From Leucobacter sp. OLIS6 (GTDB lineage Bacteria > Actinomycetota > Actinomycetes > Actinomycetales > Microbacteriaceae): a stretch of 64,000 nucleotides of DNA. The stretch lies in contig NZ_MRAV01000014.1 of assembly GCF_002752355.1 (NCBI RefSeq), positions 558,001-622,000 on the forward strand, read 5' to 3'. The notes beneath the pieces are model-generated. The model ran no database searches. It worked only from the letters and a program-made list of their open reading frames with translations, and was not told the origin of the DNA. Shown here in pieces: positions 52,688-53,695 of the stretch. Numbering within the stretch: the first letter of the stretch is position 1; each line of letters opens with the position of its first letter. Position numbers and translations under genes: made by a program.

Positions 52688-53695
52688 TTAGAAGTCCCAG
52701 TCCTCGTCGGTGGTGTCCTCTCCGACTCCCATCACGTAGGAGGAGCCGGATCCCGAGAAGAAGTCGTGGTTCTCGTCGCTGCCGGGCGAGAGCGCCGCGA
52801 GGATCTCCGGGTTCACCCGCGTCTCCTCCGACGGGAACCGCGCCGGGTAGCCGAGGTTCATGAGCGCCTTGTTCGCGTTGTAGCGCACGAACACCGCCAC
52901 GTCGTCCATGAGTCCGAGCGGCTCGTAGAGCTCCCCGGAGTAGGCGAGTTCCAACTCGTAGAGGTCGTCGAGCAGTGCGAAGGTGAAGTCGCGCATTTCG
53001 GCGCGCTCCGCCTCGCCGAGCTTCGCGAGCCCCCGCTGGAACTTGTATCCCGAGTAGTAGCCGTGCACGGCCTTGTCCCGCAGGATCAGGCGGATCATGT
53101 CGGCGGTGTTGGTGAGGGTCGCGTGCACCGAGAAATGCAGCGGCAGGTAGAAGCCCGCATACAGCAGCAACGAGGACAGCAGGGTCGACGACACCTTGCG
53201 CTTCAGCGGATCCGGCCCGGAGTAGTGTGCGAGCACCCGCTTGCAGCGCTCCTGCAGCAGATCGTTGCCCACCGCCCACCGGTAGGCCGCGTCGATCTCG
53301 GATGTGGAGGTGAGCGTCGAGAACACCGACGAGTAGGAGCGGGCGTGCACCGACTGCATGAAGGCGATGTTCGTATAGACCGCCTCCTCGTGCTCCGTCA
53401 GCGCGTCCTGGATCTGGCAGATCTCCCCGACCGTCGCCTGCACGGTGTCGAGCATCGTGAGCCCCGTGAACACCCGCATCGTCAGGGTGCGTTCCTCCGG
53501 GCTCATGCGCTGCCATGCGGGGATGTCGTTCGAGAGCGGGACCTTCTCGGGCAGCCAGAAGTTCGCCGTCAACCGGTTCCACACCTCCAGATCCTTGTCG
53601 TCGGGCACCCGGTTCCAGTTGATGGGGCGCAGGCGCGCGTCCGGGTCGTGCCGGTATCCGGGCGGGGTGATGGAGCGGGTGAGGTCGCGGGTCAT
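52688..53695 (-). CDS. nrdF: Class Ie (metal-free) ribonucleotide reductase beta subunit
   Basis: 335-residue R2 protein that supplies the radical to NrdE for dNTP synthesis. It matches NrdF along its length, ending in the NrdE-docking tail [20 protein letters not shown]. The class Ib metal-ligand glutamates are replaced: the usual Glu of ME-S-V-H is Gln114 ([10 protein letters not shown]), that of the LES motif is Ser174 ([12 protein letters not shown]), and that of RDEAVH is Lys208 (RDKAVHGYY). Asp83, His117, His211 and Tyr121 remain. Q/S/K at these positions is the class Ie pattern, in which Tyr is hydroxylated to DOPA and holds the radical without metal. NrdI is encoded two genes upstream, as class Ie activation requires. 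Confidence 0.92.

Follow-up and report, generated by a model that had tools for sequence, protein, structure and literature searches.

The 64,000-nucleotide stretch of the Leucobacter sp. OLIS6 genome analysed here, referred to as the window, carries a ribonucleotide reductase operon, nrdIEF, whose R2 subunit NrdF adds, by sequence, a further member to the class Ie QSK group already described. The operon is likely to be a laterally acquired cassette that serves as a spare enzyme, held down by manganese-loaded MntR and released at manganese shortage. The nrdF gene is an intact open reading frame of 335 amino acids on the minus strand (52688-53695), and its assignment is based on its residues, its structure matches and its place in the tree. 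Direct reading of the translation gives Asp83, Gln114, His117, Tyr121, Ser174, Lys208 and His211 at the key positions, which bears out the initial annotation, where Gln, Ser and Lys were said to stand in for three metal-binding glutamates with Asp83, His117, Tyr121 and His211 kept. The codons for Gln114 (53354-53356), Ser174 (53174-53176) and Lys208 (53072-53074), each a Glu in class Ib, were located on the minus strand by computation from the start of the reading frame. Class Ib (R2b) proteins have four carboxylates and two histidines for two metals, and three of these four carboxylates are replaced in the window NrdF; the residues and gene order of the VPK branch (Val, Pro, and Lys; nrdFIE) do not agree with those of the window either. 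Among 130 loci compared, taken from named genomes and relatives of the window's genome, 128 gave an nrdF match (L202 and L203 are not nrd loci), and these fall into only two residue states, DQHYSKH in 56 rows and DEHYEEH in 72, with none mixed, so that neither chance nor sequencing error is a sensible explanation. The 56 QSK rows represent 53 distinct loci after removal of the duplicates L038 and L201 (same record as L115) and L122 (same as L060). In a tree of 99 rows, built without VPK rows and after nine duplicate or nearly identical QSK rows and 20 canonical ones, most of them Microbacterium, had been set aside, the 47 QSK and 52 canonical rows are split at 100/100. The window NrdF shares the QSK side with the 46 other rows of that type, outside metal-binding class Ib, and its neighbours are Micrococcus lylae (91% identical), Gulosibacter hominis and other Leucobacter rows, although the fork that holds it is weak (81/75). 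The nearest solved structures by sequence are 8RAG and 8RAH, the QSK R2e of Gardnerella, and 8RAG is also the best fold match (E 7.4e-27, TM 0.76, with a high rmsd of 12) of an AlphaFold model with a mean pLDDT of 83.8. Residues, tree clade and nearest structures thus agree with the earlier assignment to the QSK branch of class Ie.

Upstream of nrdF and in the same direction lie nrdE, encoding a class Ib-type R1 subunit of 721 amino acids (53736-55901, minus strand; TIGR04170, 1133 bits against a cut-off of 750), and nrdI, encoding the activating flavoprotein (55898-56455 as the longest open reading frame, minus strand; TIGR00333, PF07972), both over the NCBIfam cut-offs of class Ib families; nrdI is in the operon of nrdF, as had been claimed. 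The true start of nrdI is probably Met16, at about 56410, following a GAGGAGG stretch that resembles a ribosome site. Positions 56447-56462 on the minus strand hold what we tentatively take to be a NrdR-like box, a weak one with four mismatches to the consensus as we presume it to be. The order nrdIEF is one of those given for QSK operons in the main text of PMC11846895, where 275 class Ie QSK sequences from four orders of Actinomycetota are reported. The same source describes the Gardnerella homologue as active, with no metal bound and with DOPA at the active-site tyrosine, and a metal-free DOPA chemistry may be carried over by analogy from this characterised enzyme to the window NrdF. By homology, NrdI would deliver the oxidant that converts Tyr121 of NrdF to DOPA and its radical, Lys208 would occupy the Mn1 position close to Asp83, and NrdE would carry out the reduction.

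The QSK enzyme is not the only reductase of its genome. A second NrdF, 65% identical to that of the window and carrying all metal ligands (DEHYEEH), is encoded on contig C3 close to NrdE, NrdI and NrdH in an ordinary class Ib nrdHIEF-type set, and sole status of the QSK enzyme was accordingly rejected. Because this ordinary set is present, the QSK enzyme is a spare on which the cell need not depend. For class II reductases, no match over the family cut-off was obtained in the window's genome, the weaker matches being the two NrdE proteins. Between nrdE and nrdF of the ordinary operon lies a gene whose product combines collagen-repeat and phage tail-collar domains (L002 2712-3941, minus strand, contig C3), and a comparably wide spacing between these two genes is seen in G020 and G003. 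Within the genus, a QSK-type match (at least 83% identity) occurs in nine of 37 genomes, our own included, one of the nine being a fragment at a contig end. When 43 QSK genomes were searched with canonical NrdF (loci L040 and L076 lie outside this search), 32 had two or more NrdF matches and 11 had one; the second NrdF, fetched for 30 of the 32, is DEHYEEH in every case. A Streptomyces bikiniensis record (L053) has the QSK NrdF as its only NrdF match and a promoter that lacks the dyad described below.

The promoter region of the window operon contains an 18-bp dyad of the form WSTWCG-N6-CGWASW with one mismatch (56538-56555; TGTTCGTCTTGACGTAAT on the nrdI strand), and a second copy is present as a half-site only. 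The pattern was written from 15 printed QSK promoters, after which, in all distinct loci with nrdI, at most 420 bases ahead of the point where the nrdI profile begins were scanned, and no more than one mismatch was allowed. It was found in 35 of 48 QSK promoters (26 exact) and in none of 68 ordinary class Ib promoters, compared with means of 1.6 and 2.9 loci (maxima 5 and 7) for the QSK and canonical sets in 40 first-order shuffles. Among the 33 QSK promoters that had not been printed before the pattern was written, 21 carry the dyad (15 exact), and with near-copies removed it is present in 15 of 25 (9 exact). A genome-wide scan for the exact dyad is not specific enough to serve as evidence by itself, as the own genome gave 27 places against 20 for a reversed control among the matches listed, barely above that control; since the exact pattern is this common, the place of the dyad counts more than its rarity. 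The dyad occurs in 34 of 39 promoters of spare-type QSK operons (31 two-NrdF genomes and eight Leucobacter loci) and in none of eight sole-type promoters (Fisher 4e-6), a test that is not independent of kinship because the sole-type set consists of seven Bifidobacteriaceae and one Streptomyces, whose relatedness could explain the 0/8. The five spare-type promoters without the dyad belong to four Corynebacterium and one Brevibacterium.

The same pattern connects the operon to manganese uptake. On contig C7 of the window's genome, an intact DtxR/MntR-type gene with all compared ligand positions kept is followed by an Nramp (mntH) gene (PF01566, 366 bits), and the gap between the two holds a perfect 24-base palindrome that contains the dyad pattern. 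The exact dyad was found in eight of 50 DtxR loci scanned, and in the mntR-mntH gap only at L157 and L162 besides the own genome, both from other Leucobacter genomes, including that of the near relative G018; at L295 and L163, which are among the 50 loci and have an Nramp-like match nearby, no exact dyad was found. In Agrococcus casei, Leucobacter sp. 7(1), Zimmermannella alba, Micrococcus lylae and L. celer, the dyad (exact in four, with one mismatch in Z. alba) is positioned between nrdIEF and a divergent importer operon that encodes a substrate-binding protein, an ABC ATPase, an ABC-3 permease and, as its last gene, a DtxR-like protein with altered metal ligands. A PEPCK gene is also present in four of these five loci, the exception being Agrococcus. 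In A. casei, Leucobacter sp. 7(1), Z. alba and M. lylae an intact MntR-type gene stands tail to tail with the ligand-less gene, and in M. lylae a separate exact dyad precedes this intact gene. We infer from these positions that the dyad is an MntR box with MntR as its binder, and manganese is suggested as the signal for the QSK operon. Mn-loaded MntR, encoded elsewhere in the genome, would repress nrdIEF at the dyad (56538-56555), and manganese shortage would lift the repression; the ordinary class Ib enzyme of the cell needs metal.

A possible alternative regulator is encoded within the cassette itself. Adjoining nrdI and divergent from it is a gene for a DtxR/MntR-family protein of 221 amino acids (56630-57295, plus strand) with HTH, dimerisation and FeoA domains (PF01325, PF02742 and PF04023, all over cut-off). 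Six DtxR ligand positions were compared, of which 102, 105 and 106 are partly our assumption. The protein has Leu79, His83, Pro98, Ala102, Glu105 and Gly106, with five of the six changed and only Glu105 kept. The remaining DtxR ligands used for the comparison are His79, Glu83 and His98 (PMC2628430). Together with its ligand-less kin it forms one clade (98/97) with long branches, 13 rows representing 12 different proteins, and the aligned genes come from ten genomes, all ten with QSK, some on contigs other than that of the QSK locus. The best DtxR matches of 24 relatives without a QSK-type match are all intact, in a sample that is biased because one search took QSK genomes only. The ligand-less protein may be a metal-independent repressor, an MntR antagonist or something else, and its location and its association with QSK genomes would be in keeping with control of the operon by this protein in place of MntR, in answer to a non-metal signal such as redox state or protein partners. 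We regard such control as unlikely, as four islands have the ligand-less gene at the distal end of the importer operon, tail to tail with an intact MntR-type gene, and as the dyad also occurs with no ligand-less DtxR nearby, for example in Corynebacterium, where an intact DtxR-family gene adjoins nrdI.

On another reading, the spare enzyme would serve under iron limitation or oxidative stress and not under manganese limitation. The class Ie operon of Streptococcus pyogenes is described as repressed by MtsR when iron is replete (PMC6593403), DtxR-family repressors are reported to be able to answer to both metals (PMC2628430, PMC13001254), and the binding protein of the Agrococcus island also resembles the iron-binding YfeA (306 bits). 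That protein is closest, however, to the manganese transporter component MntC (353 bits; zinc-type ZnuA about 84), the dyad has the pattern of the site that precedes the Nramp gene, and the sequence retrieved around the IdeR-like gene on contig C16 contains no exact dyad; moreover, the nrdI-nrdF2 pair of Corynebacterium diphtheriae is listed as MntR-regulated (PMC13001254). A role in iron limitation or oxidative stress is thus considered quite improbable. It could also be proposed that the window NrdF is a degenerate class Ib protein on its way out and inactive, since no metal site is left after the three losses and the genome also encodes an ordinary class Ib set. Decay of this kind is hard to reconcile with the identical three residues in every one of the 56 QSK rows (53 distinct loci), with the presence of nrdI in 51 and nrdE in 34 of these rows, with the 11 of 43 genomes in which QSK is the only NrdF match, and with the in vitro activity reported for the Gardnerella enzyme (PMC11846895), and it appears very improbable. 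Manganese-controlled expression of a spare enzyme is the preferred reading.

The operon and its divergent DtxR-like gene together form a cassette of about 4.7 kb (about 52672-57341), the extent of which was judged from relatives without it at the same position. One edge is marked by the remnant of a response-regulator gene (52451-52671, minus strand), which is full-length in G018 (PF00072 and GerE domains), and the other side is adjoined by a tRNA-Leu (gag) gene (57586-57671, minus strand) that is also at the site in three relatives. The same site, from an M20-peptidase gene to tRNA-Leu, is without nrdIEF and the DtxR-like gene in G018, G013 and G001; G018 is a near relative whose flanks are 96.6% and 93.4% identical to the window and which holds about 4.5 kb at the site that are absent from the window, and G013 has a QSK locus elsewhere in its genome. 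Supported forks of the QSK tree mix genera, for example Curtobacterium with Kocuria at 100/98. Because the site is empty in relatives, the distribution is patchy and QSK forks mix genera, gain of the cassette by lateral transfer is the likelier direction. Base composition was rejected as a sign of transfer, since the cassette has 67.1% G+C in a window of 70.5%, but the ordinary nrd operon has 65.7%. No 9-mer was shared between the two stretches (120 and 100 bases) compared for direct repeats at the cassette edges. A phage origin was rejected, as all five NrdF proteins checked from 140 matched phage records are ordinary DEHYEEH, and so was a plasmid origin, for which the best of 128 matched plasmid records, compared by identity alone, reaches 67.6%, lower than QSK loci. 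Pseudoglutamicibacter cumminsii (L054) and Brevibacterium ravenspurgense (L055), members of different families, have the same QSK layout with equal identity to the query, and their likeness could reflect either recent transfer or contamination.

The surroundings of nrdF differ between the two types of loci. Within 8 kb of nrdF in the 53 distinct QSK loci, an FMN-reductase gene is found in 22, a GTP-type PEPCK in 13 and a DtxR-family gene in 12, some of these counts being inflated by near-identical Corynebacterium loci; a Mn/Zn-type binding protein is found in at least five and an ABC-3 permease in at least two, lower bounds because the flanks were often too short. Each of these five is absent from all 72 canonical loci. 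Nineteen of the 22 FMN-reductase genes are co-directional and begin 8-410 bases after nrdF (for example L039:7309-7887), one lies 1.6 kb after it and two are on the other side. They belong to family PF03358, whose structural relatives here include 1RTT and 3U7R, and the encoded protein is proposed as a candidate NrdI reductase of the sister QSK operons. In the own genome, only a 34% relative of the island-type FMN reductase was found at E 1e-20 or better, so this enzyme is not indispensable and is outside the system of the window. GTP-PEPCK is a manganese enzyme. A GTP-type PEPCK paralogue is encoded on the opposite strand upstream of nrdI in L120 (5341-7239) and in 12 other distinct QSK loci, and only a 42% relative of this island-type PEPCK, located elsewhere, was found in the own genome; an alternative copy of PEPCK in a manganese-starvation island is suggestive. 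It is possible, though we would not call it probable, that the QSK reductases of actinobacteria belong to a mobile island for manganese starvation and form its DNA-synthesis arm. A single MntR operator would drive nrdIEF together with a dedicated flavin reductase, as the missing reductase of NrdI, to one side, and to the other side a manganese importer and a ligand-less DtxR-type regulator. The window would then be a minimal form that has kept the metal-blind regulator beside the metal-free enzyme.

Many actinobacterial QSK systems may be spare enzymes under manganese control. MntR, DtxR, FMN reductase and Leucobacter are nowhere mentioned in the main text of PMC11846895, and a literature survey at the level of listings and selected passages, with most subscription journals outside it, showed no link of QSK enzymes by name to MntR or FMN reductase, which is weak evidence of absence. 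What goes beyond routine annotation here is the operator evidence for manganese-controlled spare QSK enzymes, together with a concrete NrdI-reductase candidate in sister operons, and the operator pattern opens a direct test in environmental bacteria. A close regulatory parallel is nrdI-nrdF2 (DIP1923-1924) of C. diphtheriae, an nrdI-nrdF pair given as part of the MntR regulon with the mntABCD importer; the likeness drawn here is by regulon listing, and in the portion of PMC13001254 consulted no nrdE is listed with the pair and a ligand-less DtxR is unmentioned. As MntR control of this pair is already published (PMC13001254), the MntR logic proposed here would be a generalisation and not a first. 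A close parallel in the enzyme itself is the R2e QSK protein of Gardnerella vaginalis/Bifidobacterium vaginale (8RAG, 8RAH; PMC11846895), which has the same Gln, Ser and Lys with Asp, two His and Tyr kept, the same nrdI-E-F order and 66-68% identity to the window NrdF within the same clade. The Gardnerella enzyme is described as the only class I reductase of its host, with nrdH in the operon and with NrdH raising DOPA formation (PMC11846895), whereas that of the window is a spare with nrdH outside the operon; the dyad was not found in the seven Gardnerella/Bifidobacterium promoters scanned but is present in that of the window. The nrdF.2-I-E.2 operon of S. pyogenes (PMC6593403, PMC8463856) shares with the window a class Ie spare beside class Ib and, as proposed here for the window, repression by a DtxR-family metalloregulator, in S. 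pyogenes MtsR, but it is of the VPK type with the order nrdFIE and belongs to the Bacillota, in contrast to the QSK type, nrdIEF order and actinomycetotal host of the window.
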